Positions 34,481-52,727 of a DNA stretch of 64,000 bases are shown here, in pieces; within the stretch, counting starts at the first letter, position 1, and every line of letters starts with the position of its first letter. The translations under genes and the position numbers were made by a program. The notes beneath the pieces are model-generated. The model was not told where the DNA came from and did not search any database. It worked only from the letters and a program-made list of their open reading frames with translations. The stretch comes from Paramecium tetraurelia (lineage: Eukaryota > Ciliophora > Oligohymenophorea > Peniculida > Parameciidae), in contig NW_001799620.1 in NCBI RefSeq assembly GCF_000165425.1, forward strand, positions 197,202 to 261,201. Reading direction: 5' to 3'.

Positions 34481-36642
34481 ATGCTTAGACCCAAATAAGC
34501 CTTCAAGTTGAATCTAAATAAACCCCCATTAGAACGAGTAAATAGGAAGTAGAATAGTTTAAGTTTATGTGAGTAGAGGTAAGATTTTGATTGAATTTTC
34601 AAAGCAATTATTCGTTGAGTGTGACAAAAAATAAAACCAATATTTCTACGACAATAAATTCTATTAATAGAACTACAAACTCCTTTAGAGTTGATCCAAA
34701 AAGGGAAAAGTTATAAACCCATACAATAGAGCATTAAAAAACCACGGATTATGATTTTGGAAACAAAATCAGGTCAACTTTTCAAGAAAGCGGCAGAAGA
34801 AATAGAAAACTAGTACGATTTGTTATGTGATATTAAGAATACATCTTATAGAGAGAAACATGAAAGGCCTATATTGCATAGTAAATCATTAATATGTGGA
34901 TAAAGAGAAATAGAGAATAATGACTAATTAATACAAGAGTATGAATGTTAATAATTAGAAACTTAAATGTTATTCAACAAGGTTTGATTAAAGAACCATA
35001 ACTGCCAATAATTAATGCATATGAAGATCTAAAAAAAGTAAAGGAGTAAGTCAACTCTATGAATAACAATTTGGAACCAGAAACTTTCGAAGTAGATGAG
35101 TGGGTTTATTAGGGAGATTTTGAGAAACTAAAGCTTGATGCATTAAGCTTGGATGATTTAAGATTTTTGGTCTAAGAATTTGAGAAGGAGGAATATGAAA
35201 GAAATTATTTGTAAATGGATAAAACTTTATTAAAGAATAAGTTTTTTTAAAGATTTGGCTAAGGAATCAGAATTGGAATTATGGAAAAAGCTTCTATTGA
35301 AATTCAAGATGCCGGAAAAGTCATTCTACAATTAGGAGCTTGCAGCAATAACCTTTTTGTTATTCTTAGAGGTTCATGTTAATAGACATTGACGATGGAT
35401 ATACAACTGGAAGAATATGAATATTTAACAGTCTAATCTTATAACGATGGGTAAGATTTATCAGAAATCAATTTATTGCAATTAAACAATAACAGAGGAT
35501 ATTCTTCAAATAAATTTATAGATATGGTGGAGGAAATCAAAGATCATCCTAAATTTAAAGGTATCAACTTTAAAATAATTTGAGATATTGTAAAAAATGA
35601 AAGAACTAAATTGATTACTAGCCACATTTCTTGCTCATCGAAAACTTATCTATTGCGAATGGACAATGACCAATTCTAAAAGATTTTAAAGCAATCGATA
35701 GAAAAAGATAAAGAGTTCAAATTGAGCATTCTATCATAAATCAGATTCTTTTAACATACTTCTGCTTCTCAATTATTACATTTAGTGGCAGAATTAGGAA
35801 TTCAAAATTATTTTTAGGGAGATAGTGTTGTGAGAAAGGGAGATCAATTAAACAGAGTGATAATAATTGCTTAAGGTGAATTTGAAATTGTAGAAGAAAT
35901 TGAACTATAGAGAGAAACAAGAAACTATTATTTGGAGAAAAAATTAAAACCCTTTGTCCATAAAAAACCCATAGATAGAAATACTAGGCCATTCATTCCT
36001 AGGGACTAAGCTGATTAAACTTTTGATCAATATTTAAATTAATCTTTTGATTAATCTATTGCTAAACCAAAAGATAAATCAAAAGATTAACCATAAGACT
36101 AAGCAAAAGAATAACCATAAGATTAATCAATAGATTAATCAAAAGATAAACCAAAAGATTAATCAAAAGATAAAACAAAAGATTAAACAAAAGATTCAAG
36201 AAATTCAAAATGCTACTAATATTGTAATAAGTAAATTATAGGCAAGAACGAAATTGCTTATACTCATTTGCATGTTTTGAAAACTTTGAAGAAATGTGAT
36301 GTGATTTGTGGTAGATCATTATTAATCTTATATGATAATGAGTATGACTAAAAATAGGCAAGCAGTGCAAAGTAATCAATTATATATATATATCTATATA
36401 GACTAACTGTAGTTGTCAAGAGTGTATAGGGTAGTGTCTTCTTTTTGGATGAAAAAAGATACTAAAATCTCCCAGAAAGCTTATAAAACCAAATTTTAGC
36501 AGGATTAAGGTCTATAAAAGAATTTGATGATTATGAGATAGATCACATAAGAAAACAAATAAAGTCTTGGGAGAAATACAAGTAGAATTTATACTAATAG
36601 TTCGTATTAGATAAACGTAAAAATTCGTTTAAACTATACTGA
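34481..36642 (+). CDS. Protein with two cyclic nucleotide-binding-like domains
   Basis: 688 residues from ATG 34481 to TGA 36642 with introns of 26, 25, 20 and 24 nt; a 30-nt stretch near 36380 (GTAATC...ATATAG) may be a fifth intron. A basic N-terminal third leads to a helical segment (FLVQEFEKEEYERN) and the first beta-barrel: DAGKVILQLGACSNNLFVILRGS. A second follows: FQGDSVVRKGDQLNRVIIIAQGEFEIV. These match the cNMP-binding fold (x-G-x-x-L-F-x-I-x-x-G), but neither carries the FGE-AL phosphate-binding cassette, so nucleotide binding is doubtful. A Lys-Asp-Gln repeat follows the second domain. No kinase or channel domain, so it is not PKG or a channel. Confidence 0.65.
36067..36195 (+). 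repeat. Imperfect 12-nt coding repeat (Lys-Asp-Gln/Lys)
   Basis: About ten imperfect 12-base units (consensus like AAAGATTAATCA) encode alternating K-D-Q and K-D-K with P, S or T spacers inside the two-cNBD protein. The repeat keeps frame throughout. It looks like a recent slippage expansion forming a charged, disordered linker. Confidence 0.8.
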
Positions 36643-36713
36643 TAATCAGACTTTTTTTTTTATTTTCATTTAATCTCTATTATGTAACTGAATAAAATAA
36701 ATATATATATGAG

Positions 36714-39700
36714 TCAATTTTAAGCTTTTTTTTATAGAATTGAATTTAATTTGTCTGCAATTTTAGAATCTAGCATTAGATTTTATTTGAGCTACAGTAA
36801 GTCTAGAGCTTAAGTTGGTTATTCAACAATTTCATCTTATTAGTCTATTTCACTATAATCATATTTCTCAATTGCATGATTTAACTAATCTTCAAATTGT
36901 TAGAATTCTGGATCTTCGATTTCTGTCTATTTCTTTGAAAGCCTCGTTGTTGATTGCAGATCTAAATCCTCAACTATCTGAACATTGTCTGTGAAAATTA
37001 CTCCTTCAGAGGTTCGTTTAATCCAAGGAGCTTCTGGTTTATTTTCAACAACAGTTGGCTAAAATAGTTAATAATTTATTATACACTGATTGCTTCAAGT
37101 AATTTGTCGTCAAATTTGATGTTCATTTCAGGAATCTCAACTGTGGGCAAACAAAAGGATAACCTCAACAATAAGCTCTATTTATATTTCTTTAAAGGCA
37201 GTTTGACCATTGGATATATTGAGCATAATCTGTTGTGTTATGGAAAGATGATGAATTCAGTCAGCTTTGAAAGCTCAGGATTGATTTCACTTTTAGGATT
37301 CTAATCTTCTTTCAATAATTCAATAAATTATGATAGATGTTCTTAGATTTCTGGTTATGCTATATTTTCATGCAATTATTCTAAATAATCATGTGCCGAT
37401 TCTGTTTATCCTAAGAGTAAATGTACAGTGGCTCTATTGAAATAGTATTCAAATAAATTGTAAGTTCTATCGCTGAATTCAAATTCTTCCAAAGGTTTGC
37501 TTCTACATTCAATCTTCTTCTGAGTTTAATTCAACTACTCTAAAATATATTAGTCTGAATCATTGATAGAACCTAACTCCTTCCTCTATTGATCCTCTTT
37601 AATTTTATATGATTCTCTTAATGCTTATTGGGCACCTTCATATTATTTTAAGTAGAATAGGAATATTCCCTTATAAAATAGGATGTCTGATTTTTTGAAT
37701 ATCTTTCCCTCTGCTCCCTTCTTTAAAATTTGATTAGCACATTGTAGGGCTTCCTAAAACAGATTCTAATCACTATTCGCTGTTGATGTATTCTTTAACT
37801 ATTGCAAGATATTTAAATCCACAATAGCATGGATTTCATTTGATTATTCTACTATTTTTTGCAGATCAAGCATTGAACTATTTAGTTCCTTAATTAAAAT
37901 ATATGTTTTGGCTCTGTAGTACAATACTTGCAAGCTTTTTTCAGAGCTAATACTATTAGAATAGGACTGGATAGCATCTTCATAAGCACCAATCTAAAAG
38001 AACAAATTCCCTATGATAATATCATTCTATGGATCAGTCTATTTAAATTCTTTGTATTTTTGAGCATCATAATAGGCATTTTTCCTATCTCCCAAATATA
38101 GAAACATTTTCGCTCTATTTAAATAGGCATCAACGAATTTCTCATCAAGATTAATTGCTATGGTTAAATCATTAAGAGCAAGTTCAAATGCATTTCTACA
38201 AGCTTATATCATCCCTCGGACGTAAAAATGCTTTGCTACATGATCTTCCGACTTTTCTATGGCCTTATCTAAATCCATTAAGGAATCTTCCAATCTTCCC
38301 TATGCAAAAAGAACAATTCCTCTATAAAACAGTAGATTCGATTGCTCATTTATTTTGACTGCCATGTCCATGTATTTGAGAGCATCATTCAAAAATTTAT
38401 TTTTTTTTTCGACATCATCTTTTGGAATAAGATAACTATAGAATTTGACTAAAGTTGTGGCCTTGTAAAAGTAAGGTTCCATTTTATTGGGCATTAATTT
38501 TTAGGCTTTTAAAAAGAATCCTTAAGATTGTTCGAATTAGTTTGCTACAGCAGCAAGGATCCCTTCAGCTATTAGTTTATTATAAATGGAGGGTTTTTCA
38601 AGTGAAGCCAATTGATTGAGATCATTAAGAGACTTTTAGTACTGCGATTAACAAAAGTATCCATAAGCTCTATATTAAAAGATGAGAGGTTTCAAAAAAT
38701 CTGTAAACTAATGTTTAGTGATCAGGGTTGTCAGAGCCTCAACACCTTCATCGAATTTACGTTTCATTAAGAAAGTAACTCCATCGGTAAAGATTTTGAA
38801 TTTTTCTAAGATCTTTTCATCGACATCTAAATAATCAGCTCGACTCAACTGATAAAATGCCTCGTAAAAGTCCCTTTATTCAATTTTAATTTTAGCAATT
38901 TCATAAAGAGACTTGGACACAGCCTTTTTTGAATTGTTATGTTTGATTGATTACTCATATGCTAGGAAGGCTTCTGAAATTTAATCTAATGGGAATTTTA
39001 ATATAATAATTTACTTCTTTTGGTACAAATGAAACCTTTTATATATAATGCTTCAGAATCACAATGATCTTCTTCTAAAACAGCCTCAATATCTAGTAGT
39101 GCCAAGTCATATTCTTTTAAATCAATGTAGAGCAAAGTTCTTTTGACTAGTGCTTATCTGAAAGCGGAATCCTCGCATTCTATAGCCTGAGTGCATGCTT
39201 AGACACTGTATTTTGGTTGATTCATGTATCGGTAACAATCGGCTTATCCTATATATGCAATTGCCTTTTTTGGTTGTATTTCTACTGCACTAGTGAAATC
39301 CTTCAAGGCACGATCATACTATTTCATTTTCAACAAAAGTTTGCCTCTGTAGATATAGGCATCAAAATATTTGTTAAACTGTTTAATAGCATGAGTTAAC
39401 TTGAATTTAAATTAATTATGATACAGTAGTTAAGGCATCGTTTGGACAATTGGATTTTTTGTAAGCGATTGCTAATAGAATGTAGGCATTTCTTTTATAG
39501 AGTGGTTGTTGTGAAATCAGGAGACTCAGATCGGCAATTGCTTCTGAGAATTCTGATTTACTCAAATGACAGAGACCATTTAAATATCTTGCTTCTGGAT
39601 TGTTACTGACTTGGAGAATGTCTTCAAATAGTTTTTGTGCTTCTTCAGTTTGACCCAAGCTCAAAAGTTTCTTGCCTTCAATTATTTCTTAGGATTTATC

Positions 39701-40255: not shown

Positions 40256-40494
40256 TCTATCTATTGATATTATTATTATATTACTTCCAAATTTACTGTT
40301 AACTATTAATATAATTCAAAAAATTCCATTCGGAGTATTATTTTTAATATACAGAGATATTTTATAAATATACTTTTTAAACCAAAATAACATATACCAA
40401 TTACTCTAAATATAGGATTCCTCTCTAAATTAATTTCTATTTTTGTCTCATTTCTCCAGAGAAGTTTTACTTTGATTATAAAATTAATTAAAAA

Positions 40495-42191
40495 ATGGGA
40501 TGCGGTTCAGCGAAACCATCTGATGTTAATAACCCTCAATACAGTAATATCTTAATTCCATATGTGAGTCAATGACAAATCTCAATTGCGTGTGACATCT
40601 CTAAATTTGGTAACTGAAAAGATCGGACAGATTTCGTAGGATTATCATCTTCTCAAACCTTCCTTAGGAAAAGGTATTTCTCATTATCCACCATTCCCTA
40701 GGAGCCTATGGAGAAGTTCGAAAGGGCATCCACAAATTGACCAATCAAACTAGAGCTGTGAAAATTATCTCCAAAGAAAAGGCCAAAAAGGCTGATATGG
40801 AACGTTTAAAGGAAGAAGTCGACATCCTCAAAAGATTGGTATGTTTAGTTGTCTCACACAAGGATCATCCAAATATTATAAAGATCTATGAATTTTATCA
40901 GGATAATAAAAACATGTATATAGTGACAGAACTGTGTACTGGAGGAGAGCTCTTTGACAAGATCTAAGAATCCAGTTCATTTTCAGAACGCAAAGCAGCA
41001 GAAACTATGAAACAAATCTTGAGTGCTGTCAATTACTTGCATAAAAGCAAAATAGTTCATCGGTATGTATTTGGTTGCATTTATTTCTAAAAGTGACATC
41101 AAGCCAGAAAACATTCTATACGAATCTTCTAAGCCTAATGCCCTACTCAAAATTGTCGATTTTGGGACATCTCGCTTTTACGATCCAGATGTAAAAATGG
41201 ATCAAAAACTTGGAACTGTAATTCTATACCTAATCTAGCCATACTACATTGCACCTGAAGTATTGGAAAGGAAATATGATGAAAAATGTGACATTTGGTC
41301 CTGTGGAGTCATACTTTATATTCTACTCTCTGGAACAGCCCCTTTTAATGGTGATGACGATAATCTAATAATGGAGGCCGTGAAAAGAGGGTTCTACTCA
41401 TTCGACACAGAAGAATGGAGGTTGATTTCAGTCGAAGCCAAAAGATTGATATCAAAAATGCTTGAGAGAGATCCCAAAAAAAGGATATCTGCTGAATAGG
41501 CCTTATAAGATGATTGGATTACAACTTATGTGAAGAAACCAGAAATAGATCTACCTTAATTGACTAGAGTGTTAAATAACATGAAAAATTTTAATGTTGA
41601 AAAGAAGTTCTAAGAAGCTGCTCTTACATTTATGGTCAATTATTTAGCAACTAGTTAAGAAAAGTAGGAATTATTGACATAATTTTAAGCATTAGATTTG
41701 AATGGAGATGGCAGACTAAGTAGGGAAGAACTAGTTATAGGTACTTCTTGTATCATATATTCCAATAGGTTATTCTAAAGTTATGAGCTATACTGATGCT
41801 GAAATTGAAGTTGATAAATTAATGAAGCAAATTGATCAAGATGGCAATGGTAGCATTGATTATTCTGGTAATTTATGATAGTTTCTATGTATATAGAATT
41901 TGTTTTGGCTACTTTTAATAAAGTAAAATTGATAGAAGATAAAAGATTGGAATAAGCATTTAAATTGTTTGATAAGGATGGAAGTGGTACCATATCTATT
42001 GATGAAATCAAACAGATATTTGGACAAAATTCTTAGGTCTCAGAAAAAGTCTGGAAGGATCTAATATAAGAAGTTGATTAAAATGGAGATGGATAAGTAA
42101 ATTGTGTTTTAATTAGATCGAATTTAAAGAATTCAAAGAAATTATTGTCAAAGCTATTTAAAATACTAATGATACTGATGACAAGAAATGA
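40495..42191 (+). CDS. Calcium-dependent protein kinase (CDPK)
   Basis: A 496-residue protein with eight introns (25, 28, 24, 31, 21, 28, 29, 20 nt), exact frame. [10 protein letters not shown] is an N-myristoylation/palmitoylation start. Kinase domain: [76 protein letters not shown] junction helix (VLNNMKNFN) leads to four EF-hands: [39 protein letters not shown] and DQNGDGQIEFKEF cover the loops. Complete catalytic and calcium residues mean a typical calcium-switched, membrane-anchored kinase. In ciliates such kinases are linked to calcium control of ciliary beating and exocytosis. Confidence 0.92.
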
Positions 42192-42343
42192 ACAATCTTT
42201 TATATTTATTATTTTACAAAAGAATTTTAATTTCTATTGCACTTAATCACATTATCCATACAAACTAAAATGAAGACTTAAAAAGTATATAATTCAAATT
42301 AATGTTATCTTATATAATAATAATTATCTATTAAATCGGTGAA

Positions 42344-45300
42344 TCATGTTTTTTTGTATTCTGAAAATTTTTCTTCAAATTTAGTCTTCCATCTGTTGAA
42401 GTAACTATCATTGGCTTCATTGATAGGATATTCTCCAAAAGACAATACTTCATTTAATAGATCCTATGCTTCCATTTGCTTAACAAATTGGATGGGTTTG
42501 AGTGTCTCAGCATATTTGCCTTAAAATTATAAGAATAATAATACTTAGTTCTTTGGTCAAAGTGATTTCGATATTGTAGGAGTCTTTGATAAAGTTGATC
42601 TTTCTATGCACTTCTCTGAGTTACAAATATTGCAATTCAGCACAGAAACCATAAATGATATTCTGGATAAACATTTGTAATAATTCATCTCTGTTGGCTA
42701 TAAATATAACTATGGATAATTACTTGGATAAACACATAATTATTGGAGTCCATTGTATTGGATTTGGAAATCATAATTACCTAAAAGCCATTAATGCATT
42801 TTGATCAAATTATTAATGTATTCAGACTAGGACAGATTTGCAAAGGCATCAAAATTGAATTGAATGAAATTCTATATGTTATTGCCAAAACTATTCCAAA
42901 CATTGTCTTCCAATTAGAAATTGCGATCTACTTCAAAAATATTCATAGAGGCAGCAATACCTTGAATGCTGAAACGACAGAATCTTAAATATTCAACTAA
43001 ACAAATGTATTAAAATAGTGAAATATTGTCAACGTCTCTCTTGAGATTAAATCTTTATCCACCACCTTAGGTTGATTTTCCATCAAAATTTGATGCTTAA
43101 TCTCTTTGATTCGTTCTATGAGGAGAGGGAGTCTAATTTTGTCTCATCATCTAAGCAGATTAGGGAATTGAGAAGTAATCAGACGATTTGATTGCTTCAG
43201 CTTTGGCAAACAATTAATTAAGTTTGGTTTCAAGCAAAGTGTAGGGTTTAAAGCTTTGGAAGAATAACTTTAATTTTTTATGATATCCTAATTGCTGACT
43301 ATATTACCCCATGAATGTGTAGATTATCTTGTCCAAATGCAATTTGAACTGTAATCTCATATTTTTGCATAAGATCAATTCAAGCAAGAATTAAGTGATT
43401 TGAGACAACTCAAAAAAGAGCATGTAACTCTACTAATAGGTTTGAATGTGTTTAAGAGTAAGTCCAGTAACAGCTGTGAATTGGCGAAGTGATTAATATT
43501 ACTAGGTTTGGTCGATTTGAATAATTGCCGAATGCATCCTTTGTTCATGAGAAGTAAAGAATTCCAAAATTGATCTACATTGGGTTTGATCGTATGCTAG
43601 TAATTCTCTGACCAATACAAGGACATGACACCACATTGAATGCTTGTGATTGTATTGTCCATTTTCGTTAGAATTGTATATTTATTCATCAGCAATAAAT
43701 GTGAGTGATTTCAAATATCTTACGTCTACTTTATTCGAAATATTGAATGTGATTATGTCTATCCAACATTGAATGATCGATTAGAAAATCTTAGAGTTAT
43801 TTTAGTTCTTCAATGCTTCTAATTGTAAATTAACAATATCATAAAATCCTTCATTTGGTTTGTCTAATAATTCAGGGTTTGCTGGGTAAACATTTAATAT
43901 TACTGATAGAATCGAGGACAATTATCCAATGAGTTGCTTACAATTAGGATCATTGAAGTCGATTTACAATATGAAATAATGGAAAACTTACACCAACTCT
44001 TGAGGCTCTTGCAATTGATTCTCCTTTACACTTTGTAAGATCAACAACATTGAATGGAAGCATGTAAAAAGTACTTACTTATATTTCCCTTTGTACTCAT
44101 TATTGCAAACCGATTTCAGTTCCAGAACACGTTTAAAGAAGGCAAACTAATGTTTACTCATATTATTAAGCTTTTCATATGGCATCAGAGTTGCTTCTCT
44201 ATTGATATTTTAACTTTTATATTTGCATACCGCTTGTTGACTATACCAGCATAATTAATTCAACACTTCCATGGCGGGTATCATTAATTCTTCATGGATT
44301 TTATTAGTTTCAAGTGCATAGATGCTCTAACTGCCTTTCTGTAAGAAATACAATGCAGCATTGAATGCATATTCAGTTTCACCTAACTAATTGTCTTCCT
44401 AACCAAACAGTTTTACCACTCCTCCTTCTATAATATCCTTACCATTATTAGGAGAGAAAATGGAATCTCCGAGTTCCTTATCATCGTATGTATCTTTTTA
44501 ATAATTGTCGCTAAAAGGAGAACCTGTCAAACCAATTGAAAAAAAGAATTACACAAATTAAGACAATTGGTTAAACGTTGACAACAGTTAAGTGAACCAT
44601 GAAGCCATAATATTGGATTTTTATACTGCAATTGCATTTCCACCTACATAACTCACAGTGTTGCTATCGATTTAAAAGTCACGACCGTAACTGTAAATGA
44701 AATTGGATAAATAATTGAAGACTGTGTTACTTTTAATAACAGGAGTACGTTTTAAAAATTTAGCAAATTCAACATGATCACTGAATTGTATCAGTAACAA
44801 ATACCATTCTCGAATGAAGTTCTTCTAAAACATCGTCTTGACTTATTCTCCAAAAGCCTTTGTTGTCTCTTTAGATTCTTATTTCATTTCATTTATGAGT
44901 AATTTTAAGAAGTACTCTAACATCACTAATTCCTCTATAGCATCTAAAACACAGTTCTCAAAAACACACTATTCAATTGCTGTTCCTGTTTCTTTTGCAA
45001 TGTAGTTTTTGGCATTCTTGTCTGATAAAAATTTAACGAATTTCTCACATTTTCTACGTAAACAAATGTAGACTTCTCTAAAGAGTTTAAGCATCAAAGA
45101 AGCATAAGTTGTTCTACACTCTTTTGCAAATGATTGGTATCTCGATTAATTGACACATAACACTTAATGCAAAAATACTAAGACTAACATGGGAATCTTG
45201 TAATCCTATTCTAAATCTTCATCATAATAAAATATGTTTTGGAATAATTCTAAAATGTATTTGATTCCAGAACTTAGATTGGGATTTTAGGATTTCAGAA

Positions 45301-48300
45301 TGTATTACATAAAAGACTGATTATTCTCCAAACTTATTATTAAGAATTCCATGATTTCTTACTTTTCAATTGAATAGCATTTCTTATCTAATCTATTCAA
45401 TATTGTGTGAAGACTCTAAAATATTAAATGATGATAATGGATTCTCTTATTCAATAACTAATTCTCTTCTGTTTCTATGGTTGTGATACTCTATTCCAAA
45501 TTGTGATTCAACAAAGGTTTCGATAATAAACGTAGAGCACTTGTGAATATAGTACTATATTAAGGAAGGTTTCTGTCTAATATTTGATGATAGTTTTAGA
45601 ATTTCATTGCCTCGTAGGTTTGCTTGGCCATTTGCTATTCTAAATCTTCGAATTCAGGAGGATCTTAACAATTACTTTGAGGTTCACTTATTGTATTCAG
45701 TAGACCCAAAATCGAATGTATAAAATTCAATTTTACTCTGTTATTGACATACCCATTAATATCTTAATGATATGTACTGACTACTTGTTATAAGAAATAT
45801 TGCTCTTCTTAGAAAAACTAGTGCAATTGCTTAATTAAATTTAGGTTATTGCTAAAGGTTTCATCATAGATGGAATATAAGTCAATAAGAGTATTCCAAC
45901 AATCAAGTAAGTTGACTAACAAAGAAGCCACGTGATACTTTATTTTGTCTAAATTTCTCACCTCTTCATATAATTTATTCTTTATTCCAATCATATTGAT
46001 ATTATTCGATAATTGCTTTTAACCTATGTCTTCAAAAAAGGAATCCGTTAAAGTAACATCTAAATTTGTTAATAAGAATTCAAGAATCAATTAACTATTG
46101 ATTTCATTCAATTATTGTTTGATCAGAGTATGCAACTAAGTTTCCTTATATTCTTTGGTATGATAAAACAAAAATTTCTTCAAGATCTTTTACAATGCCA
46201 GATACATACTTGCCTAATATTCAATAGTGACTTCCATCTTATCTTCCTCAAAGATTTTCCATTCTTGCAATTGAAATCTCAAAAAGGTTTCAAGAGTGTT
46301 TTTGACAAATGTATGCTATGTTGATTGATAATAATGACTACTGTTTTGTTATTCAAATAATTGCAAAGGATTGTCTTACCCCATCACTGCACTGCACAAT
46401 TAAGCATAATTTAAATGGATTCTGATAACCTGCTTAACCTTGAATTAATAAGAAGCTTAACACTTTCTGGCTATATGAAATAGTTCGAACAATGGATGAT
46501 AAGAGAACCCTTATTGTCTCTACACTTATTATTCATTGGTAGGCAGCTTATTGATTTCCTCAGCCATTTCTTTTTAAAGCAAGGGATCTTCTAAAACATA
46601 GTTGATAATTTAGACAGCTTCTGAGCCTATTGTCAATAAAATATTGATTAATTAAATAGCTTTCTCTTCTTCCTTATGAGTATCAATAATTAAATCTATC
46701 AATCTTGAACATTCTGATGTTACTTTGAGTATCTATCTATTTATGTTATTTGAACTACACAACAAAGCTATTCTTTTAATTGAATTTGCTGACTTTTTTA
46801 CTTCTCCCTTAATAAATTTAATGGCATGTTTAAACTTATAAACTCTCTTTCCTAGATCATCTATGCCCATTGACAATGTCTTATTTTTTAATTTATTTTA
46901 TTCATTGTAATAATCCATGGAAGCTCTATTACTTTTACCTAAAAAATCTGATGATTTGTATAGATTATTTGTCAACTTACCTTCTGAGAAATCTATCATC
47001 ATATCATGTAAGCTTTAAAATTGATTATGATCATCTGACATTAAATCCAGTGTCTCAGGCTAATTAATTTTACGGAAGACCTTCAACTTATTTAACCTGT
47101 CAAATATAATTTATTCAGCTGAGTCATTTTCTTTCACTGATTCATAGAACTAAGTCCAAAGTGTTTGTAATTATAAAAGAATTGAAAATATCTTTGATAA
47201 GAGTTCAACCTCATCCTCAAAATCATCCTCTTAATACTTATTCTTGTAAAGACAAATCCATTGATATATGCAATTGCATGTACAACTCCAAAAATGGGTA
47301 TTTATTGATGCGTTCTCCAACACTCTCAGAACTTCAACAAAATATTTCAAACTGATTTCGTAATCATTCTAATTTTATACTTCCTTCCTTTCCTACAAGA
47401 TAATTGCAATCTAAAAGATCTTTTAAAATTAATCTGGCTGCATTTATTTAATAGATTCCTCCTTGCTAATCCATAATGGGGGAAGATAGTCTCTACAATC
47501 ATTTTCTCTTAATTAGTGTATAGGTCTAATGCATTAAGATAAAACGAAAATGAATGCTATCTTTTTATACTCTTCCTAAAGTTTAGATGCAAGAGGACTA
47601 TACTCCTAGAATACTAGATGTTCATTTTTATGGAATAATCCTAGGAATTGAGTGGTTTTCATATTATCTAGTAATTTTTAGGTTGGTTTGATGTATACTT
47701 CTTCAAATCTATCAATTTTAAAGTAACTTTATAGGATGGTGAATATCTCTAAGATTTAGGTTTGTTCTGATACGAAATGTTGAAATGTTTAAAAAGTATA
47801 TTCTTCTGAGAATTGTTCTTATTTTAGATAGAAATTCAATGCAAGAGGAACACTTAAAAAGGAATTGGCCAATCCTTCAATGAGACCTCTCTTAAACATA
47901 TCATTTAATTATTTTGATGGCTTTCCAATTTCCTCTTCGTTGATTAAGTTAACAAGCATCAATTTTAATCCAGCAACCAATTAAGATCTTTATTCAGCAT
48001 AGTGATTAAAGAATATATGCTAGAATTTTTTAATTTCATTATCAAAAAATTTAGTTTTTTCTGGTGCTTTCAATTTTCTCTAAAACTAATCATGCAATAT
48101 CTTAACTCTTGATGCCTACAAACTGTCTTTTAAGACATAATAGACTTCACTTTTAATTTTGTTATCAAAGCATTTGGTTCTAATTTCTTAATCAAATGGA
48201 GTATCAGATTGAAGTTAGACTTTATTTTCTGAAAAGGAAAACCAATTTGATCCTTGTATCATAATTTTATACAATGTATCGTCTTCTTTAAATAGACTCT

Positions 48301-49670
48301 AAATTTTAATTTCATCTCTGCAGTTCAAGATTTCCATAATTTTATAGAAATCTCTATTTTTAGAAAGGGGTAATTGTAATTTTTATTAAGGTTGCGGTTA
48401 ACTTGCTGGTTACTGTTGAGAAGCTGGTTGTTGTTGAGTTGGTGCTAATGGTTTCTATTATTGTTGTTATTATGTGCCTTATTATTATGTAGTTGGTTAT
48501 AATGGTTGTGTTTATTATTATTATGGTTATTGGGAGGGCTATTATTAATTTGGTTATGTTCCAATTTAAATGATGCTTGGAGTAGATTAAACTGCTGTTG
48601 GTTATTATGTTGTTGGCTATTAAGTTGCTGGTTATTAGGTTGTCGGTTATTAGGTCGTTGGCTATTATGTTGTTGGTTATTAAGTAGTTGGCTATTTCAT
48701 CCAATTTGATGTGATTGATTGGGTTGGTTATTATTATTATTATTGTGGCTAGGTTAGATTTTAAAGGCTGCTAGTTGTGTTTCCAAACAAATTATTTGAA
48801 GTTCCAAGAGGACTAATTTAGGCTTGACTAGGTTATGCTTGATTTGAAACTTGAGCAGTAGATACTAAAGGATTAGTGGTAGGAGGGGCTGTTGCTTGAT
48901 TAGGCTGATTTAATAAAGTATTGTTATTTTAGGTTGGCTAAGTATTGTTTTGTTATTATCCAAATAATCCTCCAGGTGTTGTTCCTAATCCAGTACCTAA
49001 TCCGGTACCTAATCCGGTTCCTAATCCGGTACTTAATCCAGTTCCTGTTCCTCCTGTTAATGCTCCAAATCCAGCTGTGGCACCACCATTATTAAAGTTC
49101 CCTAAAGTTGTTGGATTAGATGCATGTTGTTGAGTTGGGTTTGGTTGAGATGATTAGGGGTTTTGACTTTAAGTCATTCCTCCAAATAAAGAAGAGGTAT
49201 TGTTTGTTGTTTATGTTGCTTAACCACCTTATGGTTGTTATGAAAGAGAATCTAAACCGCCTAATCCAGTTTGATTTGTTTAAGGGGCCAAATTACCAGG
49301 ATTTTAAAAAAGGCTATTAGTTGTTTATGCAGGTTGTTATTATTATGAAGGTTAAGCTGCCGATGATGCCTATGAAAATAAATTGTTATTGTTTGGCGGA
49401 TTGCTTCCAAATAAATTTAAGTTGGACTATGTATTTCCAAACATATTATTAGCTGTGGATTGTGCTGCTGCTGCCTATGGAGCTCCAGCCAAACTACCTG
49501 GCTAATTGAAGACTGAGCCTTAATTCTATGTTTATCCAACTTAGTTAAAAAGAGATGATCCTTGTCCTACACTTTAGCCAAATAGGTTGGGTACTGACCC
49601 TTGCGCATTCGGAAAAAGCCCTGTTGAACTTAAAATAAACTAAATACACTTACTTATTTTAAGAGCTCAT
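42344..49670 (-). CDS. Large nucleoporin: FG-repeat N-terminus fused to a long helical region
   Basis: One gene from ATG 49670 (MSSQNN, then a 25-nt intron) to TGA 42344; about 2300 residues. The first 430 residues, up to about 48360, are an FG-nucleoporin region: PNLFGQSVG, NMFGNTQ, LNLFGSNP, SSLFGGM, a GTGLGTGL array, GGLFGQQ, NNLFGNTT, then PTTQQ repeats. The frame runs without TGA straight into FYKIMEILNCRDEIKI and a very long alpha-helical, HEAT-like part with many micro-introns (not all mapped), ending FEEKFSEYKKT. Tetrahymena Nup308 is described as a GLFG N-terminal third followed by a helical region; this looks like its counterpart. It would sit in the nuclear pore central framework. 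Whether the 6-kb helical part is a single gene needs transcript support. Confidence 0.7.
48594..48697 (-). repeat. 15-nt coding repeat (Pro-Thr-Thr-Gln-Gln)
   Basis: About seven tandem 15-base units encode PTTQQ with single changes (PATQQ). They form the linker between the FG region and the helical part of the nucleoporin. Glutamines are mostly TAA or TAG codons. Confidence 0.85.
48981..49056 (-). repeat. 12-nt coding repeat (Gly-Thr-Gly-Leu)
   Basis: Four to five 12-base units (consensus GGTACCGGATTA on the coding strand) give G-T-G-L repeats inside the FG region. Restriction-like GGTACC cores recur because of the repeat. Confidence 0.85.
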
Positions 49671-49688
49671 TTTAAATTATTTAAATTT
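49671..49688. promoter_or_regulatory. 18-bp divergent spacer between nucleoporin and importin-alpha genes
   Basis: The ATGs of the FG-nucleoporin (minus) and the importin-alpha-like gene (plus) are separated by only 18 A/T bases. A shared promoter would couple two parts of the nuclear transport machinery. No sequence box is identifiable. Confidence 0.45.
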
Positions 49689-51122
49689 ATGATTGTAAAG
49701 CAGAAAAGGGAAGCATTTCACATTTAAATGCGAAGGAATTAGCGGGAACTCATATTCTCGAAAAAGAGAATACTAGAGCTTCCCATCCAAATATCCGATA
49801 ACAATTAAGCCATACTCATTCTTTAAGGGATTTCCTAAAATCAAATTTCACTCACCACATTTTTCCAACAACTCACCTTACTTCTACCTTAATTTACAGA
49901 ATTACATCTCCAAACACTGCCTTACATTCAACAAGCAACAGCCCAATATATCTATGAAATTGATTAATCAAATAGACAAATCAATGATGATGATCTTGAG
50001 ATTTCAGAATGCACTGTCTTAGAAATGCTTCTCTACCTAAATCAACTCACTTATTATGTCAAAATAGACTTTTCTATGGATGATCTCCTAGATCTCCTCT
50101 TAAAAATATTAAAAGCAACCAATAAATTCAAAATTTTGGATAGAATTTGCCAAGTATTATACAATATTTTGCTTGATTTCCCAGATGCTTAAGCTCTATT
50201 GCTCTAGCAAAACCTTCCAACTATGTTGACCAATAAATATCTAACGAACACGAACTTTGATTTACTTAATCTTAAGAATCTCCTCATGATTTTGCATAAA
50301 TTAGTTAAAATTGGATATCATGAATACAACCTCATCCATCCTATTCTTCACAAATTACAGAACAGTTCAAATGTTCAATAATCACAATATGTAGAAGTTA
50401 TGGAATACTTTTTCTAATTTCTTGCTAATTGTTCTTCCAATTATGATCCTTAAATTATTCAATAGGTTCAATTATTTGAAAAATTCTTAGAATTCTAATA
50501 TGTTAGATGGTCTGTTGATTTGCTTTTTAAATATGATAAAAATTACAATCTTGTATGCAATATCTATCAGTTTCTAAATAACTTGAGTTTAGCAGCCTGT
50601 GGTTCAAGCATGATTGATCAAGGCATTTTGAGTGTCATATAAGTACATTTAAATGAAAAATCAGTACCTCAAATACTTATTTACTCCTTATTGACAAACT
50701 TAATTGTGGATGATCTCACAAGTATTTTACAATGTGGAATTCTTATCAGAATCCCTGCAATGTTTAGGTTAGGATTTCCTAACTCAGACTATATTCCTGA
50801 ATTGATTTATTGTATTACTGCTGCGTTCTCGAAAGCCGATGAAAATTAAATTCAAGACTTGACCAAAATCTAATTGACTGATTGCTTGGTTACTTATGTT
50901 GCAGATTTACCTCAAGAACTATTGGATTTAGAGCTTTGTTAAAAAATATTTCGAATATTGCAATCCATAATACATTTGCAAAATTAGGAATCATAAGAAG
51001 ATAATTATGAATTGGAGAAATTGAAAAACAATACTATGTTTATCATGAGATGCAATCATATCTTTGGATTAAATAAAGATTACTATTGTGAAACCCTGTT
51101 AAATATTCTGTTTGAAATGTGA
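49689..51122 (+). CDS. Importin-alpha-like nuclear import adaptor
   Basis: A 477-residue single-exon protein. The N-terminus (KQKREAFHIQMRRNQRELIF then SKKR) resembles the basic importin-beta-binding (IBB) domain. The rest is a helical armadillo-type array: VLEMLLYLNQLTYYV, LLDLLLKILKATNKF, ICQVLYNILLDFPDAQ, LLKNLLMILHKL-like NLKNLLMILHKLVKI, LIYCITAAFSKAD. Tryptophan-Asn ARM signatures are weak, so it is a divergent member. It would bind nuclear localisation signals and hand cargo to importin beta. Start next to an FG-nucleoporin strengthens the transport context. Confidence 0.65.
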
Positions 51123-51317
51123 AATAAAATCGAACAAATTTTGATAATTAATTTTATACCAATAACTCATAAAACTAGAGAATTTACTCTTTTATTACAT
51201 ACAAATCTAAATACCCTATCATGCATATAATATTATATAAAAATTGATATAAAATTGGATCATAAATTATAAAGAGTATTTCAATAATCTTTCCAAATAA
51301 ATCATTAAAATATGTAA

Positions 51318-52492
51318 TCAATAAAAATTATAAGAGCTGTATTATGTTTAATATCTATCATAAACATCAGTTACAATAGATTCCATCTTCCTTAAGATGT
51401 CATTGTTACTCTAACTAGATTTATTTAGTTCCGATTCCACTTCTGTTAAAGACTTATTAAACTTAAGAAAAGATTAACCTATCCTCTTACGATACTACGG
51501 GGTTTTGAACCTCTTATCAACCTACCCACTTTAATTTTCATAGAAGTTTATCATTGTTTATAGTTTTTTTGTTCTTTCAATGGAAGATCTTTCAGCATTG
51601 CTGTTCACATTCTCTTTAAGCACAGTTTTTTAATTTTCTGAATGTGATTACTATTGAATTTCTTTTTTCTAAGATCTTAATTAAAGAGTCTCACTAATGA
51701 AACAGGTTTGGGGTCTTCCTCTTTGATGATTTGGTGTATATTGAGGATTAATTGACAGTTTGTTTTCTTTTTTGTTCATTTACTCTTAGATTGGCTTATA
51801 TTTTGCAATACAGTGTAATTTCATATTCTTAATGAATTCATTGGTCTTATTTTAATATTTTGAATAATATTTAGAGACTGTGAGTTTGATTGAATTCTAA
51901 TTTTTAGAAAGTAAGCCATTCTCAACCAAGGTGTCAAGATTATATGTACCATTGCCTAATTATGATGCAGTAGATTTGGGGTCAGTTACGAAGTTCTATA
52001 TGGATTAAGTAAGAAAAGTATTGTCAAGCACTCTTTTCATTGGAGCAGCGGTACTCAATGATGAGATGTTCTTGGTTGAATATGTTGAGAAGGAGAGTCT
52101 TTTCTAAGCCTTTTTAGCGGGATCATAATTCAATTGTTTCTATAACCATTCCTCTTCGTTCTTCGTTTTTGTATTATTAAATTCCATTTATATTTAATCG
52201 ATTAACTTCACATCATTCAATACATTAGATTCAACAATTTTTTGTCTGACATCAATAAATGTATTGAGCTCTTTCATATTTTTTAGTTTATCATTAAATC
52301 TCTAATCAACTCGTTATTTTCTATTCTACAATCTAATTTATTTAATCATTACTTAAGTCTCTTTTGTGATTTATCTAGTAACTTTGAAGTAAGTTCCTAA
52401 ATCTTTTATTTTCTATCTTCCTCCTCTTATATTTTTTAAAAATAATCTTTTAATCTATCCATTTACAAAAACTCTGAAACTTTTATGGACAT
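51318..52492 (-). CDS. Basic coiled-coil protein of unknown function
   Basis: A 384-residue protein, one 20-nt intron, ATG 52492 to TGA 51318. The N-terminal 120 residues are a charged coiled coil (DYFQKIQEEEDRKQ, VDQRFNDKLKNMKELN). The remainder is basic and low-complexity, with repeated Ser, Lys and Asn (SFSTYSTKNISSLST, RGRPQTCFISE, TPQYRKRIGQSFLKF). No catalytic motif or membrane segment. Probably cytoskeletal or basal-body related, by composition only. Confidence 0.65.
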
Positions 52493-52727
52493 TATTAAAT
52501 AAAATTTAATTATAATTTTTGGATCATTTTACTCTTAAAGACTATAATCTTATTTTATATTTTCAGATAATCAATTGAAGAAACTAAGTATTTCATTCAA
52601 ATTATATAACATAACCTAAATTAGTTAATGAGTAAATAAAAAATGTAGTTTAAACTTTATGAAAAGATGATAAAATTAGAATATTATATATTTTATTAAT
52701 TAAATTGTTAAGCAAGATAAACAATTT

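Follow-up and report, generated by a model that had tools for sequence, protein, structure and literature searches.

A Paramecium tetraurelia gene joining an N-terminal FG region to a long helical part: a probable counterpart of Tetrahymena Nup308

We identified a gene of Paramecium tetraurelia that probably represents the Paramecium-lineage counterpart of Nup308, that is, a Nup205-like scaffold nucleoporin of the inner ring with its own N-terminal FG domain. The gene is located on the minus strand (49670 to 42344) of the analyzed stretch of contig NW_001799620.1 (64,000 nucleotides; hereafter, the window) and comprises four exons and three introns (25, 26, and 25 nt). Translated with genetic code 6 from the ATG at 49670 to the TGA at 42344, its spliced product has 2416 aa (280 kDa). 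A duplicate on another contig (C209, 240750 to 233454) encodes 2406 aa and carries the same fusion of an FG region and a helical part. The features of the window copy are as follows.

49654 to 49670, minus strand: exon 1 (17 nt, with the ATG at 49670; likewise in the C209 duplicate)
49629 to 49653, minus strand: intron 1 (25 nt; 26 nt in the C209 duplicate)
42724 to 49628, minus strand: exon 2 (unbroken frame, with nearly the whole FG region and the majority of the helical part)
42698 to 42723, minus strand: intron 2 (26 nt; 27 nt in the C209 duplicate)
42545 to 42697, minus strand: exon 3
42520 to 42544, minus strand: intron 3 (25 nt; 23 nt in the C209 duplicate)
42344 to 42519, minus strand: exon 4 (includes the TGA stop)
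48362 to 49670, minus strand: FG region, residues 1 to 428, rich in Q, T, P, N, G, and S (span includes intron 1)
42344 to 48361, minus strand: helical part, residues 429 to 2416 (span includes introns 2 and 3)
48984 to 49046, minus strand: GTGL array (12-nt unit, 4.7 copies at 48984 to 49039; as a 24-nt unit it extends to 49046)
48596 to 48696, minus strand: PTTQQ array (15-nt unit, 6.7 copies)
43031 to 43171, minus strand: polar insertion, about residues 2159 to 2205 (approximately 47 residues), rich in Q, S, T, and R, inside the helical part

The initial annotation of this DNA had placed the gene at 42344 to 49670, with its strand unstated; both end points are exact once the three introns are removed. 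It had also described a code-6 frame passing without a TGA from the FG part into the helical part at about 48360, close to the boundary found here (48361/48362), which lies inside exon 2. The stop-to-stop frame from 49666 to 42557 (2369 codons) is the longest TGA-free run in the six frames of the window, the runner-up having 948 codons, and each of the remaining five frames contains 53 to 88 TGAs over 42344 to 49670. The introns of the window copy end in AAG, TAG, and AAG, of which AAG is an uncommon acceptor end, and the reading frames agree between the two copies. An overlapping 511-codon frame (48315 to 49847, minus strand) was rejected because the FG frame joins exon 1 to the helical part in both copies.

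The FG region is composed largely of Q (23.6%), T (13.6%), P (10.5%), N (10.3%), and G (10.0%) and is nearly devoid of charged residues (4/428 in the window copy and 3/417 in the C209 copy); judged from its composition, it is disordered over several hundred residues. Motif enrichment was gauged against 2000 composition-matched shuffles per region. Residues 1 to 428 of the window copy contain 7 FG dipeptides (shuffle mean, 1.3) and 11 [LIVM]F[GNSQPA] motifs (shuffle mean, 1.1), and neither count was reached in any shuffle (0/2000 each). The same holds for the FG region of the C209 copy, with 6 FG dipeptides and 10 motifs (0/2000 each). Counts in the helical part are at chance level, with 4 FG dipeptides versus 3.5 expected (964/2000 shuffles) and 12 motifs versus 11.2 expected (906/2000) in the window copy, and 5 FG dipeptides (523/2000) and 14 motifs (500/2000) in the C209 copy. 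Of the FG and GLFG motifs initially reported for this region, the former thus stand far above the shuffles, but strict GLFG occurs only once per copy, accounting for 1 of the 11 motifs in the window copy, in which NLF or SLF forms make up 7. The GTGL and PTTQQ arrays noted at the same time are borne out as tandem repeats at the positions listed above; the GTGL array is almost missing from the C209 duplicate.

The helical character of residues 429 to 2416 was assessed with a hydrophobicity table and Chou-Fasman values. Hydrophobic periodicity peaks at 100 degrees (1.55 versus 1.05 in 60 shuffles; z = 7.0), which is an amphipathic helical rhythm, and is small at 160 degrees (0.86); the helical part of the C209 copy has a comparable z of 7.3. 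As controls, a tetratricopeptide repeat (TPR) protein encoded in the window, serving as a helical reference, gave a z of 2.5, and the FG region gave 1.8. When the helical part was divided into eight segments of approximately 250 residues, z ranged from 0.2 to 5.3, and segments 429 to 678 and 1929 to 2178 were without helical rhythm (0.6 and 0.2, respectively). Mean Chou-Fasman propensities did not discriminate, at 1.040 for helix and 1.048 for strand, compared with 1.047 and 1.042 in the TPR control. Because two segments are flat and the propensities are neutral, the helical region of about 6 kb initially proposed is upheld by its overall rhythm and not in every segment. The polar insertion within this part is probably disordered and is highly conserved between the copies, in contrast to the FG region.

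A protein of this layout has been described in Tetrahymena thermophila. According to that report (PMC5450191), Nup308 (TTHERM_00091620) has 2675 aa, with GLFG repeats in residues 1 to 570 and a helical part in residues 571 to 2675, and sits at the pores of both nuclei. Its assignment to Nup205 was based on secondary structure, on coprecipitation with GFP-Nup93, and on a grouping with Nup205 at 72% bootstrap (PMC5450191). The authors termed GLFG repeats in this Nup205 orthologue "unique to Tetrahymena" and proposed that they compensate for the few FG repeats in Nup62 (PMC5450191). Compared with Nup308 by this published description only, the window protein likewise has an N-terminal disordered FG region followed by approximately 2000 probably helical residues, with a total length of 2416 aa versus 2675 aa and an FG region of 428 versus 570 residues. 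Unlike Nup308, the Paramecium gene has one strict GLFG per copy and is present as two diverged genome copies. The length and the order of the parts therefore fit Nup308 as published, and the Nup308-type architecture suggested for this DNA at the outset holds as a likeness of layout.

The window protein also has in common with Nup205/Nup192 (PF11894) a very long helical part with a presumed solenoid rhythm. It differs from Nup205 and Nup188, described in PMC5450191 as having no FG domain, in possessing one and in showing no profile match. Pfam searches with the window protein, used intact and as eight pieces, and with the duplicate, used as two pieces, revealed no match to Nup192 (PF11894), Nup188_N (PF10487), or any other nucleoporin family; the best match, to DUF3045 (E = 0.00063; 20.3 bits against a cutoff of 27), was taken as chance. 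NCBIfam likewise gave no nucleoporin match, only nifH in the duplicate (E = 0.12), also taken as chance, and no chain of the PDB was matched by sequence or by a two-row profile. The Nup192, Nup188_N, and Nic96 profiles detected nothing in the whole genome; 14 control genomes were equally silent, so this silence does not amount to absence. Because the Pfam Nup192/Nup188 and PDB searches were empty, the Nup205-like fold stays an inference, and we file the gene as having a Nup308-type layout rather than as a proven Nup205.

The lack of a nucleoporin profile match in the helical part and in the genome would also suit an FG nucleoporin whose helical part came from Nup188, a transport receptor, or another solenoid, its likeness to Nup308 being convergent or restricted to ciliates. 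The placement of Nup308 itself depends on the three lines of evidence given above (PMC5450191). Nevertheless, we regard such an origin as rather unlikely, because the lengths and order of the parts agree with those published for Nup308, a protein of another ciliate, and because importin-beta/HEAT families, which we judge to be usually detectable by Pfam, were not matched.

Ciliate proteins often have Q/N-rich leaders. A large helical scaffold acting outside the pore (Not1-like, Mediator-like, or of a vesicle coat), in which such a leader contains FG by composition, would be in keeping with the empty Pfam nucleoporin searches as well. This is very unlikely, given that the FG counts of both copies were unmatched in the composition-matched shuffles, that the FG region has almost no charged residues, that a Nup98 of the GLFG type in this genome also contains the GLGTG array (with 12 overlapping matches, versus 3 in the window copy), and that Pfam detected no Not1, HEAT, or coat domain. 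A Not1-like scaffold was rejected on the missing Pfam domain.

Screening the genome (69 Mb; 231 contigs) with the protein (E up to 10; three candidates scored) and with DNA recovered the two copies and no third. These are situated in duplicated regions, as blastn of window positions 30 to 60 kb against 221 to 254 kb of C209 gave a discontinuous series of collinear matches spanning 30001 to 58270. The copies are about 84% identical in DNA across the gene, have introns at three identical positions, and contain no TGA or frame break within the gene. Their helical parts are 89% identical, with dN/dS at 0.061 (dS, 0.97), and are thus under strong purifying selection; dN/dS of the FG region is 0.315 (dS, 0.86). 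Among the 70 gapped columns of the alignment, 69 fall in the FG region and 1 falls in the helical part. The contrast in dN/dS and in gaps is the profile of a disordered domain carried on a constrained scaffold.

Conservation extends over the boundary between the two parts, where 20 consecutive residues are identical between the copies and codons 419 to 438 differ at 2 of 60 bases. The frame, the common intron positions, and this conservation in both copies back the earlier claim of one protein, and a single polypeptide is clearly the strongest interpretation of the sequence. That two neighboring genes, one FG and one helical, were wrongly read as one is extremely improbable and was rejected on boundary conservation: a third-position excess of substitutions is indeed missing on the FG side (17, 13, and 11 by codon position in codons 369 to 398; 11, 9, and 10 in codons 389 to 418) and GC content is ambiguous (60-nt windows of 0.22 to 0.35 at the boundary, 0.13 to 0.25 in the 3' flank, and 0.15 in coding positions 48001 to 48060), but the frame is TGA-free in both copies, the twenty identical residues bridge the two parts, and codons 409 to 448 differ by 4, 1, and 7 at first, second, and third positions.

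For this probable counterpart of Nup308, the place in the pore, the fold like that of Nup205, the binding to Nup93, and the orthology to Nup308 are predicted. The helical part of approximately 1990 residues would fold as an alpha-solenoid and be set into the inner pore ring with Nup93. The FG region of 428 residues, Q/N/T-rich and nearly free of charge, would extend into the central channel, where it would bind transport receptors and contribute to the permeability barrier. Its length would be free to vary (69 gapped columns) as long as the motifs and the low charge are kept, while the scaffold changes little. The union of an FG domain and a ring scaffold in one protein would break the usual division of labor between scaffold and FG nucleoporins. 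The occurrence of this layout in a second ciliate and its retention in both copies argue for an old, selected feature of these ciliates.

As for relatives elsewhere, viral and prokaryote contigs, scanned with two short peptides each, yielded 27 and 203 stretches, respectively, that matched one peptide, and no relative was confirmed among these. For Plasmodium and Toxoplasma, the accessible portions of papers on the nuclear pore mention no Nup205-like scaffold with a fused FG domain. Our searches of the open-licence literature turned up no Paramecium protein of this kind, and other descriptions or a database annotation may exist. As far as these searches show, the following are new: (i) the FG-scaffold layout outside Tetrahymena, (ii) the GLFG-like and NIFN-like Nup98 loci described below, and (iii) the difference in FG flavor between the copies.

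The Nup98 C-terminal domain (PF04096) was identified at five loci of the genome (L009 to L013), all above the curated cutoff. L012, whose domain match spans only positions 3 to 128 of the 148 in the profile, has GLFG-like repeats (TLFG, TGFG, and LGFG, with no strict GLFG) and is the locus with the 12 overlapping GLGTG matches; L009, L010, L011, and L013 have NIFN-like repeats. The frames of L009, L010, and L013 run well beyond the domain, as they would in a Nup98-Nup96 fusion, and that of L011 stops soon after it. The window protein shares FG motifs with these Nup98s and, in the window copy, the GLGTG array with L012. A Nup98 identity was rejected for the window protein, since Pfam gave no PF04096 match to it and five other loci carry that domain; the HFS/HFT motif is missing from both copies. 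The Nup98s of Tetrahymena are divided by nucleus, with the GLFG type in the macronucleus and the NIFN type in the micronucleus (PMC4432229). The split between GLFG-like and NIFN-like Nup98s in Paramecium suggests that this macronuclear/micronuclear pore difference may be shared.

The two copies of the FG-scaffold gene also differ in FG flavor. Isoleucine precedes F in 0 of the 11 motifs of the window copy and in 5 of the 10 motifs of the C209 copy (Fisher P = 0.012 for a contrast picked post hoc), and overlapping GLGTG matches number three in the former and none in the latter. It is conceivable, although quite unlikely, that the copies are specializing by nucleus, the window copy with leucine-type FG motifs and GLGTG resembling the GLFG-like Nup98 and the C209 copy tending toward the isoleucine type of the NIFN-like Nup98s. 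However, the C209 copy is no nearer in composition to the four NIFN-like Nup98s (distances of 0.33, 0.38, 0.36, and 0.46, versus 0.34, 0.36, 0.34, and 0.48 for the window copy) and has no surplus of F[NSQ] motifs (four versus five), and Tetrahymena Nup308 is present in both nuclei (PMC5450191). If such specialization were true, even the scaffold ring would bear a macronuclear or micronuclear filter.

Several neighboring genes were observed. A 477-aa open frame (49689 to 51122, plus strand) is arranged head to head with the FG-scaffold gene, the two ATGs being 18 bp apart. A PDB search with this frame gave no match; its N terminus weakly resembles the importin-beta-binding domain PF01749 (E = 0.027; 15.4 bits against a cutoff of 23.8), and because of this match it is possibly an importin-alpha-like gene. 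In blastn, C209 showed no match to 49726 to 52697, and approximately 40 of its bases resemble the first codons of the 477-aa frame, with a 1-nt gap. An 870-aa frame (36419 to 39028, minus strand) encodes TPR repeats (TPR_2, E = 6.8e-15) and matches the TTC21 ARM-repeat model at E = 4.5e-9, below the cutoff, making an intraflagellar transport protein a possible identity. A convergent gene at about 40456 to 42214 (plus strand) resembles calcium-dependent protein kinases, with kinase and EF-hand motifs recognized by eye. Over 41456 to 42155, its duplicates are 95 to 100% identical in six of seven 100-base windows and 93% identical in the seventh; the adjacent end of the FG-scaffold gene (42352 to 42750) shows 79 to 87% identity, and the high identity stops sharply in the 3' flank. 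This pattern may reflect either gene conversion in the recent past or very strong constraint.
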